Origin: Tomitella biformata AHU 1821 | GTDB lineage: Bacteria; Actinomycetota; Actinomycetes; Mycobacteriales; Mycobacteriaceae | DNA: 64,000 nt | Direction: 5' to 3' | Assembly: GCF_000524475.1 (NCBI RefSeq) | Contig: NZ_BAVQ01000004.1 | Coordinates: forward strand, 1-64,000 | Shown: positions 36,698 to 64,000 of the stretch, in pieces | Layout of the letters: each line of letters starts with the position of its first letter | Position numbering within the stretch: the stretch's first letter is position 1 | The notes under the pieces: model-generated | The model's input: only the letters and a program-made list of their open reading frames with translations | Database searches by the model: none | Told to the model about the DNA's origin: nothing | Program-made: the position numbers and the translations under genes

Positions 36698-37681
36698 CTA
36701 GGTTTGGTGGGATGCGCTGCGGCGGGATGACAACAGCGCGGTGACGACGCGGGACGGGCTGGCATGGCCGATGCGGTCCGCCATCCAGGCGCTCGCGTCG
36801 GCGAGGGAGTTCAGGTCGATGCCGGTCTCGATGCCCAGTCCGTGCAGCATCCACACCAGGTCCTCGGTGGCGAGGTTGCCGGTGGCGCCCTTTGCGTAGG
36901 GACACCGGCCCAATCCGCCCGCGGCGCTGTCGAACTCCGTAACGCCGGCGGTGAGCGCGGCGTACACGTTGGCCAACGCCTGCCCGTAGGTGTCGTGGAA
37001 GTGCATCGCGACCTGGTCCACGTCGACGCCGCGGGCCTGGACGGCCGCCAGCAGCGCGCGCACGTGCCCCGGGGTCGCCACCCCGATGGTGTCGCCGAGC
37101 GAGAGCGAGGTGCAGCCGCCGTCGAGCAGCTCCCGGGCGAGGTCGGCGACGCGCTCCACCGGCACCGAGCCCTCCCAGGGGTCGCCGAAGCACATCGAGA
37201 TGTACCCGCGCACGGGCAGGCCCGCGGCCCGGGCGGCCGTGGCCACCTCGACGGCGGCGGAGACCGCCCCGGCGATCGTGGTGTTGAGGTTGCGCTTCGC
37301 GAACTCCTCTGTGGCGCTGACGAACACCGCGACCTCGGTGGCCCCGGCCGCGATGGCCCGGTCCAGCCCGCGCAGGTTCGGCACCAGCACGACGGCCCGG
37401 ACCTCGTCGGGCAGGGAGACCTGCGCCATGAGCTGCTCGGCGTCGGCGAGCTGCGGGATCCACCGGGGGGAGACGAAGCTCGTGAGCTCCACGGTGCCCA
37501 CGCCCGCCGCGACGAGCCGCTCGATGAACTCGACCTTGGCCGCGGTGGGGATCACCTCGGTCTCGGCCTGCAGCCCATCCCGCGGGCCCACCTCGTAGAC
37601 CCGCACCTGCGTGGGCAGGCCCGCCTGGGGAAAGCGGTGCGGGGCCGGCGACCAGGCGGCCGGCTGCTCAGGCGCTGACAC
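36698..37681 (-). CDS. mvaB: hydroxymethylglutaryl-CoA lyase
   Basis: A 327-residue enzyme that splits HMG-CoA into acetyl-CoA and acetoacetate. The catalytic loop is VYEVGPRDGLQAETEVIP (Arg-Asp pair). Metal ligands are in VAMHFHDTYGQALANVYAAL, and the flexible cysteine loop is GGLGRCPYAKGATGNLATED. Further family marks are VELTSFVSPRWIPQLADAE and YISMCFGDPWEG. GTG start at 37681, 6 bp after the reductase stop, so both are surely coexpressed. Lyase next to a class II reductase is the arrangement of the mevalonate catabolic operon (mvaAB) of Pseudomonas mevalonii. An alternative use in leucine breakdown is less likely here because no isovaleryl- or methylcrotonyl-CoA genes are nearby. Confidence 0.95.
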   Translation of the reverse strand: MSAPEQPAAWSPAPHRFPQAGLPTQVRVYEVGPRDGLQAETEVIPTAAKVEFIERLVAAGVGTVELTSFVSPRWIPQLADAEQLMAQVSLPDEVRAVVLVPNLRGLDRAIAAGATEVAVFVSATEEFAKRNLNTTIAGAVSAAVEVATAARAAGLPVRGYISMCFGDPWEGSVPVERVADLARELLDGGCTSLSLGDTIGVATPGHVRALLAAVQARGVDVDQVAMHFHDTYGQALANVYAALTAGVTEFDSAAGGLGRCPYAKGATGNLATEDLVWMLHGLGIETGIDLNSLADASAWMADRIGHASPSRVVTALLSSRRSASHQT

Positions 37682-47960: not shown

Positions 47961-48293
47961 ATCTTCCTCACCGGCAAGGGGACGAGGCGGTGAGGCGGAA
48001 TGTCGCCAGTGGTTGGGTTCGTCGGCCATTTACTAGACATCAACGGCCGTCTCAGACAGTTCCGCAGGCCGACGGAAGGCTGCCGGGGATCACTGACCTG
48101 CCAGCCCTTCTCGCGGCTGGCCGAAGTGAACACCACCGTGAATGCTAGGCCCGTCTGGGGTGCACCCCAGGCTGACAGATTTGAGCAGGGGAAATATCCG
48201 TCAAGGTGAGGTCGAAAATTCTATTTGTTGACACTTGCCCGGTGGGCTCTTAGCTTTCAACCTGACAGTTTGGTCGGGTGGAGGGGGTTTGGC
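47961..48293. other. region between nirB and the resolvase, possible res site
   Basis: About 330 bp without a supported gene; composition becomes more AT-rich from 48180. Two related motifs, CTGACAGATTTGAG (from about 48172) and CTGACAGTTTGGTC (from about 48262), lie in front of the resolvase start. They could be parts of its recombination site. This marks the left side of the accessory DNA. Confidence 0.4.
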
Positions 48294-48857
48294 GTGCGGG
48301 TCGGGTACATCAGGGTCAGCACTCTCGAGCAGAACACCGCCCGGCAGCTCGACGGTGTCGACGTCGAGAAGATGTTCACGGAGAAGGCATCTGGTCGGGA
48401 CACTGCCCGCCCGGTGCTGGAGCAGATGCTCGGCTTCGTCCGCGACGGCGATGTCGTAATCACGCATTCCATGGATAGGCTTGCTCGAAATCTCGATGAT
48501 CTGCGCCGGCTGGTCAAGACGCTCACCGACAAGGGGGTGCGGGTCGAGTTCGTCAAGGAGTCGTTGACGTTCACCGGGGAAGACTCGCCGATGGCGATGA
48601 TGATGCTGTCCGTCATGGGGGCCTTCGCAGAGTTCGAGAGATCTCTGATCCTGGAGAGGCAGAAGGAGGGGATTGCGAAGGCCAAGCAGCGCGGCGTCTA
48701 CAAGGGGCGCAAGCCCGCGCTCACCCCGGAACAGGCCGGCCAGCTCGCGGCGCGGGCGAAAGCCGGCGAGTCGAAGACCGCGCTCGCGAAGGCGTATGGG
48801 GTCAGCCGCGAGACGGTGTACGCCTATCTGCGAGCGCAGTTCGCCGCGTCTCAATAA
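48294..48857 (+). CDS. serine recombinase (resolvase/invertase)
   Basis: A 187-residue small serine recombinase. The nucleophile is Ser9 in MRVGYIRVSTLEQN. Other catalytic-domain motifs are SMDRLARNLDDLRRLV and MMMLSVMGAFAEFERSLILE, with the E helix RQKEGIAKAKQRGVYKGRKP. The C-terminal helix-turn-helix is ESKTALAKAYGVSRETVYAY. It would resolve cointegrates or invert DNA between two crossover sites. The GTG at 48294 has GGAGGGGG upstream. It is the first gene of the accessory region and differs from the resolvase at 56508. Confidence 0.93.
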   Translation: MRVGYIRVSTLEQNTARQLDGVDVEKMFTEKASGRDTARPVLEQMLGFVRDGDVVITHSMDRLARNLDDLRRLVKTLTDKGVRVEFVKESLTFTGEDSPMAMMMLSVMGAFAEFERSLILERQKEGIAKAKQRGVYKGRKPALTPEQAGQLAARAKAGESKTALAKAYGVSRETVYAYLRAQFAASQ

Positions 48858-56187: not shown

Positions 56188-56507
56188 GAGTCGTGTGTTC
56201 TTCTGCCACGGGCCGTACCCGGGCTTACCTCCCGCTGCAGAACGGCGAGTCTCACAACCTGAAGCGCTCTAGATTTTATGCCGCAGCTTTGTGACCTGCC
56301 CTGCAGCTTGGTTTTCGCGGTTATCAGTCTCGGCAGCCCCGAATGCTGGTCGGGTATGCCCTGATGATCAACCCGGACTCTTGTCCGTGTCGGGGCGTGG
56401 GCAGGGAGGTGCGGGCACTCTCGTCTCACGTGCGTCGGCAGCTACGCCGTACCCGACGCATGCACCGTTAAGGCGATGTAAATCACTCACGCGAGGTAGG
56501 GGTGGGA
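56188..56507. other. intergenic, nothing supported
   Basis: About 320 bp between the DUF4839 terminator and the end of the resolvase gene. Small overlapping ORFs show no family pattern. Confidence 0.4.
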
Positions 56508-57056
56508 TTATTTCAGGTGGCGGTAGAGGGTGGTGCGGCCGACGCCGAGGATCTCGGCGATCTCGGTTTGGCTCATGCCGTTGTCGCGCATGAGTTTTGC
56601 CTGCGTGATTTTCTTCGGTGTCATCTTCGGTGGCCGGCCGCCGACACGGCCGCGGGCGCGGGCGGCGGCGAGGCCGGCGGAGGTGCGTTCGCGAATGAGG
56701 TTGCGCTCGAACTCCGCGAGGGCGCCGAAGATGGAGAAGATGAGCTTGCCGCCGGCGGTGGTGGTGTCGATCGATTCGGTGACCGATCGGAACCCGACCC
56801 CGCGGTCCTCTAGGTCTTCGACGGTCTGGAGCAGATGCGGCAAGGACCGGCCCAGCCGATCGAGCCGCCACACCGCCAAGGTGTCCCCGGGGCGTAGATG
56901 CGAGAGCAGATCATCGAGCTGCGGCCGGGCCGTCGTCGCACCGCTCGCGGTCTCAGTCCAGATCCGAGAACACCCCGCGACGCTCAACGCGTCGCTCTGC
57001 AGATCCAGGGTCTGGTCGGCGGTCGAGACCCTCGCGTAGCCCAAAAGTTCGCTCAT
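56508..57056 (-). CDS. serine recombinase (Tn3-type resolvase)
   Basis: A 182-residue resolvase. The nucleophile serine is in ELLGYARVSTADQTLDLQ. Arginines and the active-site helix are in LAVWRLDRLGRSLPHLLQTV and LIFSIFGALAEFERNLIRER. The C-terminal helix-turn-helix is NGMSQTEIAEILGVGRTTLY. The ATG at 57056 matches the family start; a longer frame adds 16 unrelated residues. Upstream lies a region with repeats that fits its res site, and 190 bp away begins the Tn402-like transposon. It would resolve cointegrates or plasmid dimers of an older element. Confidence 0.94.
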   Translation of the reverse strand: MSELLGYARVSTADQTLDLQSDALSVAGCSRIWTETASGATTARPQLDDLLSHLRPGDTLAVWRLDRLGRSLPHLLQTVEDLEDRGVGFRSVTESIDTTTAGGKLIFSIFGALAEFERNLIRERTSAGLAAARARGRVGGRPPKMTPKKITQAKLMRDNGMSQTEIAEILGVGRTTLYRHLK

Positions 57057-57059
57057 GAG

Positions 57060-57195
57060 GCAGCAGTGTTCCATAACCCACCGACAGGGCTCATTGTGGA
57101 ACATCCGTTATGGACATGAGTTTCGGAACATGCATCGGCTCTGGTCGCCGATTCTCGACACCGGCGTTTCATATACGGAGGTTTTCGGAACATCG
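57060..57195. other. probable res site of the adjacent resolvase
   Basis: Inverted half-sites TCCATAAC (57070-57077) and GTTATGGA (57107-57114) lie 37 bp apart, and the motif GGAACAT appears three times (57098, 57125, 57187), twice as TTCGGAACAT. Location and length (about 130 bp before the resolvase gene) match a res site with subsites I-III. Subsite limits are a guess by eye. Confidence 0.55.
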
Positions 57196-57247
57196 GTAGG
57201 CGATCCCTCAACAGGACACCGACCGGGCGGGGGCGACCCGATCGAGA

Positions 57248-57272
57248 TGTCAACTTCAGAAGACGGCTGCAC
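57248..57272 (+). repeat. terminal inverted repeat of a Tn402/Tn5053-like transposon (tni end)
   Basis: A 25-bp end beginning TGTCAAC and continuing TTCAGAAGACGGCTGCAC. It agrees with the 25-bp end (IRt) of Tn402/class 1 integrons, as I recall it, except for three bases in the stretch after TGTC. It lies 131 bp before tniA and points inward, as in known elements. The five bases outside are CGAGA; a matching 5-bp duplication would be expected at the other end, outside the window. Confidence 0.85.
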
Positions 57273-57340
57273 TCTTTGCAGGCGTTTCGAGGGTGAGTGC
57301 ACGTGTCTTCTGACATTCTGATGTCAGAAGTGCGGTGCAC
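57256..57340. repeat. three 17-bp TniA-site-like repeats
   Basis: TCAGAAGACGGCTGCAC (57256-57272, forward), TCAGAAGACACGTGCAC (57297-57313, reverse) and TCAGAAGTGCGGTGCAC (57324-57340, forward). The shared pattern is TCAGAAG-N5-TGCAC. Multiple 19-bp-type repeats inside each end are typical of transposase binding in the Tn402 and Tn7 groups. Confidence 0.8.
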
Positions 57341-57378
57341 GGTCGCACGCTCGGCTCTCGGTGACAGGGAGGCTTGTG

Positions 57379-59058
57379 ATGGACCCCGACAAGCTCGACG
57401 TCGTGGAGACCGGTGTGCTGACAGCGTCGGGGGAGCGGTGGTCTCAGGCTGAGGCCCGTTTCGCTGTCCTGGCTCCCTTGCTGGAGATGCATCCGGTGCG
57501 TTCGGAAGCGGTCGACGATGCCGCGCAACGGTTGGGATTGTCCAGGCGGCAGGTCTACACGTTGGTCGGCAGGCTCAGGAACGGGACGGGGACAGTCACC
57601 GATCTTCTGACGAAGGTCTCGTCGGGAGGGCGTGGCCGCAGCCGAGTGGCGGCTGAGGTCGAGGAAGTGATCGGCGATCATCTCGCCCGCTATTTTCTTC
57701 ACCGCCAGAAGCTGAGTGTCGCTGCGCTGCATCGACGTATAGCACTGGCGTGCCACCGCGCGGGTCTGCCAGTGCCGGCCAGAAATACCGTCACCGCGCG
57801 TATCGCCGCGCTCCATCCGGCAACGGTGGCCAGGTCACGCGGAGGACCCGATGCCGCCCGCCCACGTCAGTCCGCCGGCGACAGTCCGCCGGCGGTTTCG
57901 GGGATTCTCGATCAGGTCCAGATCGACCACACCGTCGTCGATCTGATGGTCGTTGACGAGTACGAGCGGCAACCGATCGGCCGCCCCTACCTGACGATCG
58001 CCATTGATGTCTTCAGCCGTTCCGTGCTCGGGTTCGTCGTCACTCTGGAGCCGCCGTCGTCGATATCGGTCGGGTTGTGCCTGGGCCGCGTGTGCTGCGA
58101 GAAGCAGACATGGCTGGAGGCATGCGAGCTCGCGGAGCAGGTGCAGTGGCCGATGGCAGGGAAGCCGAAACAGTTGTATCTCGACAACGCCTCCGAGTTC
58201 AAAAGCGAAGCGCTGCGCCGCGGATGCGCCCAGCACGCCATCACACTCGAATACCGTCCTCCGGGCCGACCGCACTACGGCGGGATCGTCGAACGCATCA
58301 TCGGAACGGCGATGACGGCGGTGCACGAGCTGCCTGGGACCACCTTCTCGAACCCAGCGGACCGAGGAAGTTACGACTCGGACAAGCACGCGGCGTTGAC
58401 ATTGCGTGAGTTGGAGCGCTGGCTTGTCCTGGCCATAGCCTCGTATCACGCGAGCGTTCACACAGGGATTGGGAACACTCCGGCCGCCGTGTGGGCCGGC
58501 GAGGTAGCCGCAGTTGGTCACGCCCCTCGTGTGGTGCTCGGCGAAACCGCGTTCCTGGTGGACTTTCTTCCCGTCATCCGGCGACGTTTGACGCGCACGG
58601 GCTTCGTTCTCGATCACGTGCACTACTTCTCGAACGCGCTCAAACCGTGGGTTTCGCGGCGAGAGGACCTGGGGCGGTTCGTGATACGACGCGACCCACG
58701 CGATTTGAGCAGAATCTGGGTCCTCGAACCAGACGGTGCCGGCTATGTCGAGGTGCCGTACCGGACGATGTCACATCCCGCGGTGACACTGTGGGAGCAC
58801 AGAGCTGCTATCGCCCGTCTCCGCGAACAAGGTCGGTCGAACGTCGATGAGAGCGCACTGTTTTCGATGATCGAGCAGATGCGCGAGGTCACCGACCGCT
58901 CGCAGAAAGCCACCCGCAAAGCCCGGCGCAACCGTGCCCGCCGCACGCATCTCAACGGTGCCGCGTCTGCACCGATCCCGGCGATCCACCCGCCGGTGGA
59001 GCCTCGAGCGGGCGGCGGCACCGCAACGCCTGTCTTCAGCGACATCGAGGAATGGTGA
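57379..59058 (+). CDS. tniA: TniA transposase (DDE, rve/Mu-type)
   Basis: A 559-residue DDE transposase. An N-terminal helix-turn-helix (AAQRLGLSRRQVYTLVGRLR) binds the ends. The catalytic triad is Asp183 (QVQIDHTVV), Asp269 (LYLDNASEF) and Glu305 (GGIVERIIG), with exactly 35 residues between the last two. The C-terminal beta-barrel and a basic tail (KATRKARRNRARRTHLNGA) follow, the latter probably contacting TniB or DNA. It cuts and joins transposon ends in a replicative pathway. The ATG at 57379 has GGGAGG upstream; a GTG at 57361 is the longer option. Followed after 4 bp by tniB. Confidence 0.95.
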   Translation: MDPDKLDVVETGVLTASGERWSQAEARFAVLAPLLEMHPVRSEAVDDAAQRLGLSRRQVYTLVGRLRNGTGTVTDLLTKVSSGGRGRSRVAAEVEEVIGDHLARYFLHRQKLSVAALHRRIALACHRAGLPVPARNTVTARIAALHPATVARSRGGPDAARPRQSAGDSPPAVSGILDQVQIDHTVVDLMVVDEYERQPIGRPYLTIAIDVFSRSVLGFVVTLEPPSSISVGLCLGRVCCEKQTWLEACELAEQVQWPMAGKPKQLYLDNASEFKSEALRRGCAQHAITLEYRPPGRPHYGGIVERIIGTAMTAVHELPGTTFSNPADRGSYDSDKHAALTLRELERWLVLAIASYHASVHTGIGNTPAAVWAGEVAAVGHAPRVVLGETAFLVDFLPVIRRRLTRTGFVLDHVHYFSNALKPWVSRREDLGRFVIRRDPRDLSRIWVLEPDGAGYVEVPYRTMSHPAVTLWEHRAAIARLREQGRSNVDESALFSMIEQMREVTDRSQKATRKARRNRARRTHLNGAASAPIPAIHPPVEPRAGGGTATPVFSDIEEW

Positions 59059-59062
59059 GGCG

Positions 59063-60001
59063 ATGACCGCATCGACAGGAAGCAGCAACGAACCCACCGA
59101 GTCGTCCATCGAGGATTTGGGGCACCTGCGGGAGTCGGTTCGACCGCTCACCGCACTCGACGACGCGGAGCGGATCCGGTTGATCCGGTCGGAGAGGTGG
59201 ATCGGGTATCCGCAGGCCCGTACGGTCATCGACCATCTGGAGTCGTTACTGTCGTGGCCGGACCGGCAGCGTATGCCGAACTTACTGTTGCTCGGTCCGA
59301 CGAACAACGGCAAGTCGATGATCATCGAAAAGTTCCGGCGCACTCATCCGCCGATCAGCTTGTCCGACCGCGAGCAGATACCGGTGTTGTGCATGCAGAT
59401 GCCCCCGGACCCGTCACCCGGCCGGTTCTACCTCGCACTGCTCATAGCGTTGGGAACACCGACCAGGCCCCGCAATCGGGTCCACGAACTCGAACAGCAA
59501 GCATTGATGCTGCTCCGCGCCACCGGCGTGAAGATGTTGATCATCGACGAGCTCCACAATGTTCTCGCCGGCCGCGACAACGTCCGCCGCGAATTCTTGA
59601 ACGTGCTGCGGTTCCTGGGCAACGAACTACGCATTCCTCTTGTCGCTGTCGGAACCCGCGACGCCTACCTCGCCATCCGGACCGATCCCCAGCTGGAGAA
59701 CCGATTCCACCCCATGACTTTGCCGGTCTGGACCAACACTGCCGAGACCAGATCACTGCTGGCCAGCTTCACCACGAGCTTCCCCCTCCGCAAACCCTCG
59801 CACCTGACCTCACCGGAGATGACCGACTACCTCCTCACTCGCTCCGAGGGCACCATCGGTGAACTGACAACGCTGCTCACTGCCGCAGCAGTCACCGCCG
59901 TCGACAGCGGAGAGGAAGCGATCACCTCATCGGTGCTCACGCGCACTCCGTACGTCGGCCCTACCGAGCGACGTCGCCAGTTCGAACGCCACCTCGCGTG
60001 A
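59063..60001 (+). CDS. tniB: TniB AAA+ transposition ATPase
   Basis: A 312-residue ATPase. Walker A is LLLLGPTNNGKSMIIEKF (residues 78-85 core GPTNNGKS); Walker B is VKMLIIDELHNVLAG (about 157-165). A sensor region reads IPLVAVGTRDAYLAIRTDPQ. It belongs to the TniB/TnsC/IstB-like group that selects target DNA and activates the DDE transposase. It overlaps tniQ by 4 bp (GTGA). Confidence 0.95.
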   Translation: MTASTGSSNEPTESSIEDLGHLRESVRPLTALDDAERIRLIRSERWIGYPQARTVIDHLESLLSWPDRQRMPNLLLLGPTNNGKSMIIEKFRRTHPPISLSDREQIPVLCMQMPPDPSPGRFYLALLIALGTPTRPRNRVHELEQQALMLLRATGVKMLIIDELHNVLAGRDNVRREFLNVLRFLGNELRIPLVAVGTRDAYLAIRTDPQLENRFHPMTLPVWTNTAETRSLLASFTTSFPLRKPSHLTSPEMTDYLLTRSEGTIGELTTLLTAAAVTAVDSGEEAITSSVLTRTPYVGPTERRRQFERHLA

Positions 60002-61230
60002 ACGCGCGGCTCGCACCGAGGCCCGATGATGCGTATGTTCGCCCGTGGCCGCTGCATCCGCAACCACTGCCAGGTGAGGTCCTCTCGTCATGGTTGGCCC
60101 GGATATGCGAGCTGTATCCACACATCGGGCACTCTGACCTGCTTTCGGACCTCGAAATCGATTGTTCTGTCGGGGATCTCGACCGCTACACACCGGAGCC
60201 GATCCTCGCCGAGCTGGCCGGTCGCGGCGCAGTCCCGGTAGAGAGGGTGCGGATGATGACGTTGGCGGGGTGGACACCGTGGTTGCTCGACAGCACCGAC
60301 CCCGCCGACTGCGACTTCGACACCTACGTCCACCAGTTCTCGGTCCTGCTGCCGGCCGACCTCGCGAGGGAGGATCGACGACGCCGCACACCCACAAGCG
60401 ACGCATGGTTGCCGTGGGCGAGCACTCCGCGCAGTCGGGCATGCCCGGCATGTATCGACAGCCTCGAATCCACTGCTGATATCAACATGACTCTGCTGCA
60501 TCAATATCCGGTGCTGAGCAGCTGCCTCGACCACCGTTGTCGACTCGAACCCTGCTCTGCTTCCCCTGGTCATGCAATCTTCTGGGATCAGGTCCGGTTC
60601 GGTTCGGACGAACGGGTCTCGCCCGTTCCGGTTCCCTCAGCGGTCACGGACCTCGATCGGCGCACCACCGAGGCTCTGGCAACGGGATGGGTGGAACTCG
60701 GCCCAGGCCGAGTGCACGCCGCAGTGTGGTTCCGACTGCTGCGCACCATCGCCGACGAAGTGTCCACACCGCTGGTTCGCACCGGACGGTGGGCGACGAG
60801 ACTCGTTGCGATCTGGAAGGCCGCCGGTCGTTCTCGACCACTCCGGACCGCGTGGGTTCCGTTCGAGGACCTGCACTGGGACGAGCAGGCGAAAGTCCTC
60901 GAGGCCGCAGCGATCGGCATTGCGATGGTCGAAAGCGGTGAGATCGATGCCGGCGGTGCGCACGCCTCTCTGCTGAGCCCACGACCGTATGAGCCGGTCG
61001 ATCCTGGGACAGCTCCGACGCGCTCGTCTTATCCCGCACCCGAGCGCGATTTATGGGCTGACGCGCACGCTGCGGCCGAGGCTGCCATCGCGGCAGCGCG
61101 CGTCGATCCCGCATCCGCCAGTTCGTTGTACAACTTCCTGCGCTGGGGGTGCCGCACCGCAGCGGAGCTGGATGAGACGGTGCAACTGTTCCTTGACCAC
61201 GGGATCCCGCTGCAACATCCGCCGACATAG
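59998..61230 (+). CDS. tniQ: TniQ target-selection protein
   Basis: A 410-residue TniQ/TnsD-family protein. The N-terminal TniQ domain reads WPLHPQPLPGEVLSSWLARI followed by CELYPHIGHSDLL. Zinc-finger cysteines and histidine are in SRACPACIDS and SSCLDHRCRLEPC. The rest is helical and less conserved. In this transposon group TniQ guides integration to particular target sites together with TniB. It starts with GTG inside the tniB stop. The size is typical for Tn5053-group TniQ. Confidence 0.93.
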   Translation: MNARLAPRPDDAYVRPWPLHPQPLPGEVLSSWLARICELYPHIGHSDLLSDLEIDCSVGDLDRYTPEPILAELAGRGAVPVERVRMMTLAGWTPWLLDSTDPADCDFDTYVHQFSVLLPADLAREDRRRRTPTSDAWLPWASTPRSRACPACIDSLESTADINMTLLHQYPVLSSCLDHRCRLEPCSASPGHAIFWDQVRFGSDERVSPVPVPSAVTDLDRRTTEALATGWVELGPGRVHAAVWFRLLRTIADEVSTPLVRTGRWATRLVAIWKAAGRSRPLRTAWVPFEDLHWDEQAKVLEAAAIGIAMVESGEIDAGGAHASLLSPRPYEPVDPGTAPTRSSYPAPERDLWADAHAAAEAAIAAARVDPASASSLYNFLRWGCRTAAELDETVQLFLDHGIPLQHPPT

Positions 61231-61436
61231 CTATCGCCCGATGGAGCTGGATCGTCCGCGACGCACACGCGGCGACAGCCGAAAAGCCCGTTTTCGCGCC
61301 GGGGTCATAGTCACCAACGGTCTTTGTGCGGTGACCAACGAGAATTTTCCTTCCCGCACCATCATCGCGAAAAGGCCTGCTCAGCGTATTTTTCGGCTCG
61401 AGAAGTCTGTCGGAGGTGCTCGCTACAGTGCTTGTC
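61231..61436. other. possible recombination site between tniQ and the tyrosine recombinase
   Basis: About 200 bp with two similar motifs, GTCACCAACGG (from about 61311) and GTGACCAACGA (from about 61331), flanking TCTTTGTGCG. Resolution sites of transposon-borne tyrosine recombinases usually lie directly upstream of the recombinase gene, so this is the candidate. GGAGG at 61412-61416 may serve the recombinase start. Confidence 0.4.
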
Positions 61437-62603
61437 ATGGCAGAACGGCAGCTCGGTGAAGTCGGGGACGCGGATTCACTCGTCTCGGTGGGTGGTGTGG
61501 CAGTGTTCCCGGACCTACCGGTCGAGGTCGCCGCTCGGATAGAACAGTCGATCGCAGCTTCTCGTTCGGCCGGAACACGCCGTGCCTATGCCTCGGCGTG
61601 GAGTCGATTCGAGAACTGGTGCATCGTCCTCGGGCACCAGGCTTTGCCGGCGCATCCCGCAACGGTGGCGGCGTACCTCGTCGGCGCCGCCGATACGCTC
61701 ACCGTCGACGGGACGCGGGCGTATGCGCCGTCGACGTTCGACAAATGGATCGCGGCGGTCGCGGACCGCCACCGCGCTACCGGCCACGACAACCCGTGCG
61801 GGCACGAGATGGTCCGCGCCACTCTCTCGGGTATCCGGCGGGATTACGCGTCTGCGGGGGAGCGGCCCCGCAGACCCCGTGCCCCGCTCCTCACCGCTGA
61901 CATCACTACGATCGTCGACCACGCCCGACGCACTGCAGCGGGCTGGGCGTCGGAGGTCCTCGAACGCCGCGACACCGCGCTACTGCTGATGGGCTACACC
62001 GGCGCATTCCGCCGCAGCGAACTCGTAGCGCTCGAATGCCGCGATGTCCACCGCGACCGCCTCGACGGCGCGCACGTACGTATCCGCAAATCGAAGACCG
62101 ACCAGGACGGCACCGGAACCGTGAAAGCACTCCCGTTCACCGACCGCCACGAGTCATGTCCGGTCTGCGCGTGGGTGCGATGGCTGCAGATCGTCGCAGC
62201 GTTCGACACCGGCGGCAGAGTTGCTGTCATCCGAATACTTTCCCGCGCAGTGGAATTCGACTCCCATATCTGCCGCGGCACCCTTCCTGTAGTCGAGAAA
62301 CGGTCCCCTCTGTTTCGGTCCGTCCGCAAGAACGGCAACCTCTCCGACACAGCCCTGTCCGGAGCCGCGGTGCACGCGGCGATCCGCCGCCGCGCTACTC
62401 GAGCTGGATACGGCCCCGACACCGTCGCCCAGCTCGGCGGGCATTCCCTCCGTTCCGGCTTCGTCACGCAGGCCTTCCGCAACGGTGCCGACGCGCATGC
62501 GATCATGCGCCAAACCGGGCACACCACACCCGCAATGGTCGAAACATACGCTCACGAGAATGCGCCACTGGTCGGCAACGCCGTCACCGAGCTCGGCCTA
62601 TGA
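61437..62603 (+). CDS. tyrosine recombinase (phage-integrase family)
   Basis: A 388-residue enzyme. The N-terminal core-binding domain has SRSAGTRRAYASAWSRFENW. The catalytic set is complete: Arg192 (YTGAFRRSELVAL), the beta-hairpin lysine (RIRKSKTDQDG), His336-x-x-Arg339 (LGGHSLRSGFV), His362 (RQTGHTTPAM) and Tyr371 (VETYAHENA). It should cut and rejoin DNA at a specific site. Placed directly after tniQ, it likely replaces the serine resolvase TniR in breaking down cointegrates. ATG at 61437; GTG at 61428 or 61416 are alternatives. Confidence 0.92.
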   Translation: MAERQLGEVGDADSLVSVGGVAVFPDLPVEVAARIEQSIAASRSAGTRRAYASAWSRFENWCIVLGHQALPAHPATVAAYLVGAADTLTVDGTRAYAPSTFDKWIAAVADRHRATGHDNPCGHEMVRATLSGIRRDYASAGERPRRPRAPLLTADITTIVDHARRTAAGWASEVLERRDTALLLMGYTGAFRRSELVALECRDVHRDRLDGAHVRIRKSKTDQDGTGTVKALPFTDRHESCPVCAWVRWLQIVAAFDTGGRVAVIRILSRAVEFDSHICRGTLPVVEKRSPLFRSVRKNGNLSDTALSGAAVHAAIRRRATRAGYGPDTVAQLGGHSLRSGFVTQAFRNGADAHAIMRQTGHTTPAMVETYAHENAPLVGNAVTELGL

Positions 62604-62622
62604 CCAGGCACCGACCGAACCA

Positions 62623-63714
62623 GTGAGCGGCGACGGGACGACAGGGGTAGATGCTGACCACGACGACCGCCCTTGTCCGATACGTGCATCGGACATCACG
62701 AACACGTCGATACCGAGGCGGGATCGGCACACGTGGTCACTGTTCGAGGACTGGTGCACCGCCCATGGCGAACCCCCATTGGCGGCCTCTCCTGAGTCAC
62801 TTGCTCGGTTCCTGTATGCGCACCCCGCCGCGCCGACGACCCAACGCCGCCGGATCGCGGTGATCGACTCCGCTCATCATCGGCATCTATTACCTCCTCC
62901 AGGGCGCGCTGAGACCGTCCGGGCTGCGCTGGATGGGGCCCGCACGTCGCGCCTGCAGGAGGTGGCAGCCGTGATCGGCGGAATCATCGCCCGACTCCCC
63001 GAATACGGTTGGCCGTCAGCGTTGTTCGCGCGCAGAGACGCGCTGATCCTCACGCTCGCTACGACAGGTCTGCCGTACACGCAGATCGCGGCCCTGCGGG
63101 CATGCGATGTCACCGCCGATGCGGGTCTCGACGCCCTTCGCATCGAGACAGGCCGCGGCGTTCATACCCTCACCTCCCTCGCGCTGGCGGGGACGGGCAT
63201 TTCTCCGCGCACGGTGTACCAGCGCTGGTGTGAGGTGCTCGGCCATCAGGCCCGGTATCCGAGCACCCGAATGCTCGCCGACGCTTTCGATGCCGTGGAC
63301 GGCACCGGGCTCGGCGGATACGACCGGTATTTCGACCCGGCCGGTCAACATCCGCTGTCAACTGCGATCGACCGGTGGGGCCACACCCCGTTGGCTGCGA
63401 CCCCGCTGACCGCCCGCGCGGTAGCGGGCATCGTGCGAATGCACTGGGACGGAAGGGCACCCACCCACCTGCAGCCCAGTGCGCGGTCACAACAGCCGGA
63501 GCAGAGCACTGCACCGGATCCAGTACCGCGGGTCGTGCTCGACCCCGGCTACTACGAACGCGGAACGCTTGCGCGTAGACACGCCCACGGTCTTCTCGAT
63601 GACCTGGACTCCGTCCTCGCCGATGTCGAAACCCGCGCGGACAGCCTGTTGGAAGCACTCGTCGACTTTCTCGCATCGGCGACCACACACGTGCCGACCG
63701 ACACCGTCGAGTGA
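62623..63714 (+). CDS. tyrosine-recombinase-like protein lacking catalytic residues
   Basis: A 363-residue protein that resembles its upstream neighbour in fold: a SAM-like N-terminus (RDRHTWSLFEDWCTAHGEPP) and a helical core (ALFARRDALILTLATTGLPY). At the point where the catalytic arginine should follow 'TG', it has LPYTQIAALRACDV; no HxxR box and no tyrosine motif at the end could be found. The C-terminal ~70 residues are helical and acidic (LDDLDSVLADVETRADSLLE). It may act as an accessory or directionality partner of the active recombinase. GTG at 62623, 20 bp after the recombinase stop, is the best start; other starts lie in the recombinase gene. Confidence 0.7.
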   Translation: MSGDGTTGVDADHDDRPCPIRASDITNTSIPRRDRHTWSLFEDWCTAHGEPPLAASPESLARFLYAHPAAPTTQRRRIAVIDSAHHRHLLPPPGRAETVRAALDGARTSRLQEVAAVIGGIIARLPEYGWPSALFARRDALILTLATTGLPYTQIAALRACDVTADAGLDALRIETGRGVHTLTSLALAGTGISPRTVYQRWCEVLGHQARYPSTRMLADAFDAVDGTGLGGYDRYFDPAGQHPLSTAIDRWGHTPLAATPLTARAVAGIVRMHWDGRAPTHLQPSARSQQPEQSTAPDPVPRVVLDPGYYERGTLARRHAHGLLDDLDSVLADVETRADSLLEALVDFLASATTHVPTDTVE

Positions 63715-63818
63715 CTAGTGGTTGGTACTCCGGTTTGCACACACTCTTCTTCTCATGGCAGGGAGGCGGCGACGTCTCCGACATCTCCGAGACGAAGATC
63801 GATCAGGTTGCGGACGTC

Positions 63819-63837
63819 GACCCCGTTCTGCGGGGTC
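63819..63837 (-). terminator. hairpin at the end of the AraC-type gene
   Basis: GACCCCG-TTCTG-CGGGGTC, 7-bp perfect stem, just after and touching the AraC stop codon on the reverse strand. The rest of 63715-63836 shows no gene. Confidence 0.55.
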
Positions 63838-64000
63838 TACGTCGAAACCGGGTCGTCCGAGAGTCGGAGATTTCGGAAATCTTTCGGAGAGCGTCCGGTC
63901 CAGCGTTTGAAGGCGTGAGAGAAGTTGGCGAGGTCGCTGTATCCGAGTTCGGTAGCGATCTCGCTGACCGAAACCGATCGGTCGAGGAGCCGTAGCATCG
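63837..64000 (-). CDS. AraC-family transcriptional regulator, partial (C-terminal end)
   Basis: The reverse strand is open from the window edge to TAG at 63837-63839. It reads LLDRSVSVSEIATELGYSDL and ANFSHAFKRWTGRSPKDFRN, the second helix-turn-helix of an AraC regulator with its closing motif. The N-terminal part lies beyond the window. It is convergent with the recombinase-like gene. It could be cargo of the transposon or the first gene beyond it. Confidence 0.9.
   Translation of the reverse strand, partial: MLRLLDRSVSVSEIATELGYSDLANFSHAFKRWTGRSPKDFRNLRLSDDPVST

Follow-up and report, generated by a model that had tools for sequence, protein, structure and literature searches.

The 64,000-nt stretch analysed here (the window; bases 1-64000 of the 79,588-bp contig NZ_BAVQ01000004.1, hereafter C109, from a 4.7-Mb assembly in 112 contigs) contains the left end of a 17.5-kb Tn402/Tn5053-like transposon of Nocardiaceae. 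We describe this element as a Tn402-like actinobacterial res-site hunter with a tyrosine module. Res-guided insertion combined with a tyrosine recombination module is the best overall explanation of the data, and we hold it with high confidence. Judged by alignment with intact relatives, the interrupted res is that of the right-hand one of two resident serine resolvases, and the insertion point falls between its probable site I and the gene-proximal sites. The element is called Tn402-like because tniR, a defining feature of Tn5053/Tn402, is missing.

The complete element occupies C109 57248-74791 (17,544 bp). Its features in the window are the following.

57248-64000, plus strand: part of the element in the window, with ends and duplication located
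57248-57272, plus strand: left (tniA-side) 25-bp terminal inverted repeat TGTCAACTTCAGAAGACGGCTGCAC, from a whole-contig repeat scan
57243-57247, no strand: left copy of the CGAGA target-site duplication; right copy at C109 74792-74796
57248-57340, no strand: left end; subterminal repeats of the TCAGAAG type, in either orientation, from a word count over the contig
57379-59058, plus strand: tniA, DDE transposase (Pfam Mu-transpos_C; rve below its cut-off)
59063-60001, plus strand: tniB, AAA ATPase (Pfam TniB, 2.9e-75)
59998-61230, plus strand: tniQ (Pfam TniQ, 6.8e-18)
61309-61366, plus strand: conserved core in the tniQ-int interval, single-copy in the genome
61437-62603, plus strand: int, tyrosine recombinase (Pfam Phage_integrase, 7e-12)
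62623-63714, plus strand: rec, degenerate partner of Int (alignment and Int-Rec profile match; start uncertain)
63837-64000, minus strand: AraC-type regulator gene (3' part), where the cargo begins; the remaining cargo lies past the window

The original prediction had placed the start of a TniABQ element at 57248, with a terminal repeat in the expected orientation, and had anticipated a CGAGA duplication and a second end. All of these were found. A scan of the contig allowing up to 8 mismatches located the inverted right repeat beyond the window, at C109 74767-74791; it differs from the left repeat at 2 positions and is the sole other match with fewer than 8 mismatches in the 79,588 bp. CGAGA abuts both ends of the element and represents a 5-bp target-site duplication. 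The word TCAGAAG occurs seven times in the contig, three times near the left and twice near the right end, within about 100 bp and in terminal or subterminal position; the subterminal TCAGAAG-type repeats are presumably TniA binding sites. TniA is 60.5% identical to TniA on proteobacterial plasmids, one of which is annotated tniA/tniB. No TnsA gene was seen among the ORFs of the element. A search of window positions 20000-44000 against plasmids found no close plasmid backbone, and no exact terminal overlap of C109 was found.

The gene order is tniA, tniB, tniQ, int, rec and then cargo, which comprises genes for an AraC-type regulator, a 2Fe-2S ferredoxin, a P450, a ferredoxin reductase, a transglutaminase-like protein and an SDR, followed by a BtrH-type protein, a thioesterase, an MFS transporter and a TetR regulator. 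The top PDB chains for the P450 are one labelled only 'cytochrome P450' (5.9e-209), a P450 alkane hydroxylase (1.4e-203) and then CYP153A7 (1.5e-137); it is named CYP153-like because the best chains carry those labels. To judge from these genes, the cargo looks like an alkane-oxidising enzyme set. Within the cargo, an ORF at L002 11009-11674 resembles, by eye, the start of an IS3-type transposase.

The target site and the resident resolvase system in the window are as follows, with the subsites of both res assigned from symmetry and conservation.

56508-57056, minus strand: left resident serine resolvase gene, about 182 aa, outside the transposon (Pfam Resolvase, 2e-45, plus HTH_7)
57067-57193, no strand: intact res belonging to the left resolvase (blocks conserved in L006, L162, L163, L164 and L165)
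57067-57103, 57107-57131 and 57165-57193, no strand: probable subsites III, II and I of the left res, respectively
57195-57247, no strand: distal part of the res of the right resolvase, with a probable site I near 57195-57213 (gap-free alignment to L006 and L158-L161)

The resolvase gene noted beside 57248 is confirmed by Pfam. Its 5' end faces the element and the gene points away from the transposon; relatives of it occur in plasmids without the element. The right resolvase gene (C109 74886-75467; Pfam Resolvase, 8.5e-41) is divergent and starts about 95 bp outside the right end, and the two proteins share 38% amino acid identity. The remainder of the right res and its gene lie past the right end of the transposon and hence outside the window. 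A third serine resolvase gene with HTH_7 is present at 48225-48857, 8.4 kb away from the end of the element. At 56340-56400, downstream of the left resolvase, a short degenerate stretch (GAATGCTGGTCGGGTATGCCC...) resembles by eye the start of a right-type resolvase and is probably a resolvase remnant.

The joined flanks of the element were aligned with nine intact upstream regions, chosen among 80 matches listed: L006 and L162-L165 for the left type, L006 and L158-L161 for the right type. The five other plasmids of the left type keep the half-site repeats at 57060-57195, previously proposed as the res of the left resolvase, and these repeats therefore represent that resolvase's own upstream site. 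All conserved blocks of this type are to the left of the element, the last of them stopping near 57193. The right-type region starts near 57195 and continues as far as the right resolvase gene, and alignment of the joined flanks with the five element-free loci of this type needs no gap at the insertion point. In intact relatives such as L158, TGTTTGA-CGATCC-TCAAACA forms a good site I where the window has 57195-57213; the window's own copy has a degenerate left arm. The joined flanks align with the intergenic region of Rhodococcus rhodochrous BX2 (NZ_CP027559.1), where relatives of both resolvase genes are divergent and no gene is annotated between them.

These alignments revise one part of the original prediction. 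Targeting of a res is well supported by the duplication, by the second end, by the empty sites and by the survey described below, whereas the left resolvase was most probably not the target. Insertion just past the left res would agree with the fact that this res is well formed and only 54 bp from the insertion. However, we consider it very improbable that the left res was the target: in five intact loci the counterpart of 57195-57247 is the distal part of the right-type res, and three of them (L158-L160) carry a different annotated gene upstream; the 104 bp between the element and the right resolvase domain fit the 95-138 bp found at other right ends. L006 and, by sequence, L161 carry a left-type site I upstream of the right-type res; L161 lacks any annotation at that place, and because of this resemblance it is not independent of the left type. 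The sequence comparisons thus assign the insertion point to the right res, and the left res is intact.

For comparison, relatives were gathered by TniA, yielding 29 loci from genome contigs, 46 rows in 31 of 401 family genomes and 12 plasmid records. From the family genomes 44 of the 46 regions were taken, the other two rows being the window itself and the second piece of one copy; genome-contig loci and family-genome (G) loci overlap largely. Of 86 rows, 77 had a recognisable left end, and these gave 45 distinct left flanks, one with just 23 bp of flank; the nine rows without it (L019, L020, L074, L082, L085, L086, L097, L108 and L109) were excluded. Right repeats were located by pattern and one per element was hand-picked, which gave 23 ends and 21 distinct flanks; some elements extend beyond the contig or the retrieved stretch. 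The outer of two right repeats was taken in L114 and c29, both beside a resolvase, and the inner ones were omitted. Also omitted were a repeat of c37 at 36858, with no resolvase near, and the right repeats of upstream tandem neighbours, which border on the next element; all of these would add resolvase-free ends. The resolvase profile was derived from seven resolvases, and three of the seed loci are also part of the survey.

A profile search of the 443,870 bp flanking the 66 distinct ends (up to 9 kb of flank) returned 34 serine-resolvase matches, including fragments such as the two pieces of one broken gene at c9. Twenty-eight of the 34 start within 250 bp of an end, versus 3.7% expected, and in 27 of these 28 the 5' side of the resolvase faces the element. 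The binomial P of 1e-34 ignores kinship and the counts are non-independent, with many close strains of one genus among them. The strength of the survey therefore lies in the diversity of the resolvases: 27 of them fall into 16 groups at 95% and 11 at 80% amino acid identity, with a pairwise median of 47% and a minimum of 28%.

A resolvase adjoins 17 of the 21 distinct right flanks and 10 of the 45 distinct left flanks. The latter figure had first been read as showing that left ends are mostly not at res; this was revised after the right ends were found, because insertion into a res leaves the resolvase on just one side of the element. Counted by insertion site, such a resolvase stands at one or other end in 27 of the 45; three sites with both ends read have none (c12, c35 and c39), and the right end is unread or unassigned in 15. 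At right ends the resolvase domain lies 95-138 bp outside in 14 of the 21 groups and the gene is interrupted in three more (c8, c10 and c29); no resolvase was found at three right flanks (c25_G180, c35 and c39), and that of c12, read over 213 bp, has one in the opposite orientation. Distances at left ends range from 1 to 198 bp, and some of these insertions hit the 5' end of the resolvase gene, not the res.

It could be argued that insertion is random and that the intergenic DNA upstream of plasmid resolvases is merely tolerant in resolvase-rich plasmids. Many carriers are indeed plasmids, and c35 and c39, with matching end pentamers on contigs of more than 1 Mb, are not beside a resolvase. 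Against this, the matches cluster within 250 bp of an end and nearly all share one orientation, and the resolvase gene itself is interrupted in c8, c10, c29 and L033, which intergenic tolerance does not predict. Furthermore, c38 (G068), on a 1.8-Mb contig, adjoins a resolvase; at the survey sites on contigs of more than 1 Mb other than c35, c38 and c39 the right ends are unread or unassigned. As a hold-out we used two relatives outside the family (matches were obtained in five of 397 genomes of the order; the remaining three are the window, G039 and G095). In G472 (6.1-Mb contig) a resolvase lies 97 bp outside the right end; its ends were found solely by a direct inverted-repeat search, and the adjoining repeat GACGCC has a one-base ambiguity. 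Element ends were looked for in G653 and none were found. Taken as an explanation of the whole pattern, random insertion is extremely improbable.

The spacing of 95-138 bp at 14 of the 21 right flanks would also be expected if the resolvase genes belonged to the mobile unit, as cargo or an outer segment, in which case proximity would say nothing about targeting. We give this almost no weight. Matching 5-bp duplications separate the element from the resolvase at six sites, related resolvases are found without the element, and for the window the intact element-free loci contradict it. In addition, ten element pairs were compared at the right end: the interiors are 97-100% identical in all ten, and outside the end seven pairs show no match, two are 70% and 84% identical over 500-700 bp, and the last pair, c19/c21, shares a single site. 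Insertion beside resident resolvases is the reading that we retain.

End pentamers match in eight of the 21 right-flank groups, six of them beside a resolvase. The two others, c35 and c39, indicate that some insertions are not at res, since their pentamers match and yet no resolvase adjoins. The pentamers differ in 13 groups, and such ends may not derive from one simple insertion. For Tn502, direct repeats were lost through later transposon activity, and the Tn5053/Tn402 family also inserts at non-res sites, according to the available part of PMC7765201; half-exchange at the core described below would give the same mismatch as loss of direct repeats.

Beyond eight distinct left ends, at a distance of 37-41 bp, there is a 24-bp motif that was first read as the attachment site, or dif, used by a tyrosine recombinase. 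It occurs once in each of 12 out of 37 genomes of one genus, in nine cases within 45 bp of a left repeat. That reading was abandoned once a serine resolvase had been seen in the right flanks of c9 and c27 and the motif had been found to replace site I in a rough alignment of c9 and c27 with the right-type res, which is gapped and weak over the motif.

Most relatives with readable surroundings thus also adjoin serine resolvases, and the pattern suggests that resolvase-site targeting is a wider trait of TniABQ, also in Actinobacteria and across varied serine resolvases. Because the targeted resolvases share as little as 28% amino acid identity, the recognised feature is more likely a complex than a sequence. 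The 27 natural insertion sites should be useful for learning what TniB and TniQ recognise.

Res-site hunting is known from proteobacterial mercury transposons and integrons. With Tn5053/Tn402 (Tn5090), the 'res site hunters', the element shares the tniA-tniB-tniQ order, the 5-bp duplication, the 25-bp terminal inverted repeats ending in TGTCA with subterminal repeats and, here by position only, the preference for the res of resident serine resolvases. Compared with what we take to be the Tn402 end, 3 of 25 positions differ at the left end and 2 of 25 at the right end. In Tn5053/Tn402, bound resolvase is said, from the work of Minakhina in 1999 and Kamali-Moghaddam in 2000 as cited in PMC12217951, to guide TniABQ actively; by analogy, such guidance may apply to this element. 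Tn5053/Tn402 differs in having a serine tniR with a linked res after tniQ, where our element has Int, a degenerate Rec and the core, and in carrying mer or integron cargo rather than a P450 set in actinobacterial hosts. The accessible text of PMC7765201 gives the Tn5053/Tn402 layout as tniABQ-res-tniR and, like that of PMC12217951, places insertion between sites I and II of res; PMC12217951 reports this as the place that res-site hunters prefer. In104, which lies upstream of the res gene in SGI1, likewise occupies the boxI-boxII spacer of a res with 5-bp repeats, and its removal restores the SGI1 res (PMC12217951, as far as available). It belongs to a gammaproteobacterial integron cluster generally without tniABQ, and the function of its target was tested, whereas that of the present element is read from sequence. 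No description of res-site hunting in Rhodococcus or other Actinobacteria was found in the open-access literature searched, outside which subscription journals mostly fall.

On the analogy of Tn5053/Tn402, TniA, TniB and TniQ would have recognised a resolvase-occupied res complex and placed the element between sites I and II. Site I would thereby have been moved 17.5 kb from the rest of the right res, which is probably disabled because of this distance; for other insertions, separation of site I has been taken to inactivate the site (PMC12217951, available text). The neighbouring left res is untouched. Because no TnsA gene was seen, transposition was probably replicative. Resolution of the resulting cointegrate would then fall to the tyrosine recombinase Int and its partner Rec, acting at the core, and not to a serine TniR.

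The residues Arg-Lys-His/Arg-His-Tyr are invariant in all ten aligned Int sequences, and Int accordingly has, by alignment, the active residues of a tyrosine recombinase. Rec is related to Int by profile (98.6%, 224 columns); at E 0.001 it matches no Pfam family. All 12 aligned Rec sequences are without an Arg at the position of the first catalytic Arg of Int; L029 has an Arg one residue further. The predicted structure of Rec, of low confidence (mean pLDDT 62.5), gave 26 PDB matches (E<=0.001), all of Cre or its variant Tre and with TM-scores of about 0.2, which lend weak support. The reading frame at the first codons of rec (62600-62623) differs from that of relatives, and GTG at 62623 may be a usable start.

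No serine recombinase match was obtained inside the element, and tniR-res after tniQ is absent. In c38, c39 and L032 (60-62% TniA identity) a serine recombinase gene follows tniQ in the canonical tniR place, which int and rec occupy in the window element and in most closer relatives. A block within the tniQ-int region is almost constant among elements with very different neighbours. Among 53 stretches, the core (at most 5 of 27 mismatches) is present in 34 of the 34 elements with int within 1.5 kb after tniQ; two stretches (L003 and mot_G274) have the core without int there, and 17 have neither after tniQ, int being elsewhere in c18 and c40 and tniA absent from mot_G313 and mot_G234. We presume that the core is the recombination site of Int.

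Sequence identity switches at the core in four element pairs. L110 and L112 are identical up to and through the core and divergent after it; L112/c19 and c10/c33 are identical from the core on and divergent before it; and c25_G180/c37 are identical as far as the core. The switch point is bounded on both sides in L112 only (61338-61364) and on one side in the other pairs, and all fit 61338-61360. Across 465 pairs of 31 elements, identities before and after the core correlate at 0.52, and 268 pairs differ by at least 15 points; as rates of evolution before and after the core may not be equal, more weight is given to the switch points. The same Int reaction, acting between copies of the element, would swap transposition halves for cargo halves and so give the observed mosaic pattern.

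Int-Rec could instead be ordinary cargo, a captured plasmid recombinase with no role in cointegrate resolution. The pair does stand alone on plasmids (L167 and L168), and tniABQ elements without Int after tniQ exist (c13_G323, c15 and c42). Even on plasmid pKNR (L168), which has no tni genes, the core precedes the stand-alone int-rec pair by 70-100 bp with 3 mismatches; before the stand-alone int of L167 it is absent. We regard the cargo explanation as unlikely, as the pair sits directly after tniQ in the place that tniR has in c38, c39 and L032, and adjoins a conserved core where modules switch; a cointegrate-resolving role has also been inferred for resolvases in Tn7-like elements without tnsA (available text of PMC8649781). 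We therefore keep to a role of Int-Rec in resolution, and the core and its switch points make the part played by tyrosine recombinases in such elements directly testable.

Tyrosine-type resolution is also a property of Tn3-family elements with TnpI or TnpS-TnpT, in which a tyrosine recombinase and a core lie beside the transposition genes and TnpS-TnpT involves a partner protein. Their transposase and ends are, however, unrelated to those of this element. Tn7-like elements of clades 2 and 3 share the lack of a TnsA gene and a tyrosine recombinase beside the transposition genes, which is taken as the cointegrate resolvase, and tyrosine resolvases in the Tn5053-containing clade have already been noted there (PMC8649781, as far as accessible). 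The accessible text gives no recombination site or target preference for them, in contrast to the core with switch points and the res preference that sequence comparison shows for our element. A core for such a tyrosine module was not reported in the open-access literature searched, including the available parts of PMC3414803, PMC8373256, PMC12915292 and PMC6794481. TniABQ with res targeting and tyrosine resolvases in the Tn5053-containing clade are thus already known, and the element differs from Tn5053/Tn402 by its tyrosine module and its actinobacterial hosts.

Tentatively, and with slightly less than even confidence, we propose a two-part machine. TniABQ would park copies in the res of diverse serine resolvases and so disable these res, while Int-Rec would recombine copies at the core and reassort transposition and cargo halves across plasmids and chromosome, with mismatched pentamers as scars of half-exchange; Int-Rec could also replace the disabled serine system in the resolution of plasmid multimers. 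Switching at the core may explain the movement of CYP153-like gene sets between Rhodococcus replicons.

Several arrangements of copies were also observed. Elements lie head to tail, with 3-9 bases between a right and the next left repeat, in L008, L017/L018, L027, L028, L031 and L095. Strain N9T-4 (L111 and L118) carries closely similar P450 elements on two plasmids, one base apart, in closely similar resolvase genes. In pRhX5 and pLP337 (L003 and L004, 12100-17100), the same TniABQ left half and core are followed by a TnsA-type Tn7-like set that replaces int-rec and that is possibly like Tn7706, to judge from the description in the available part of PMC12915292.
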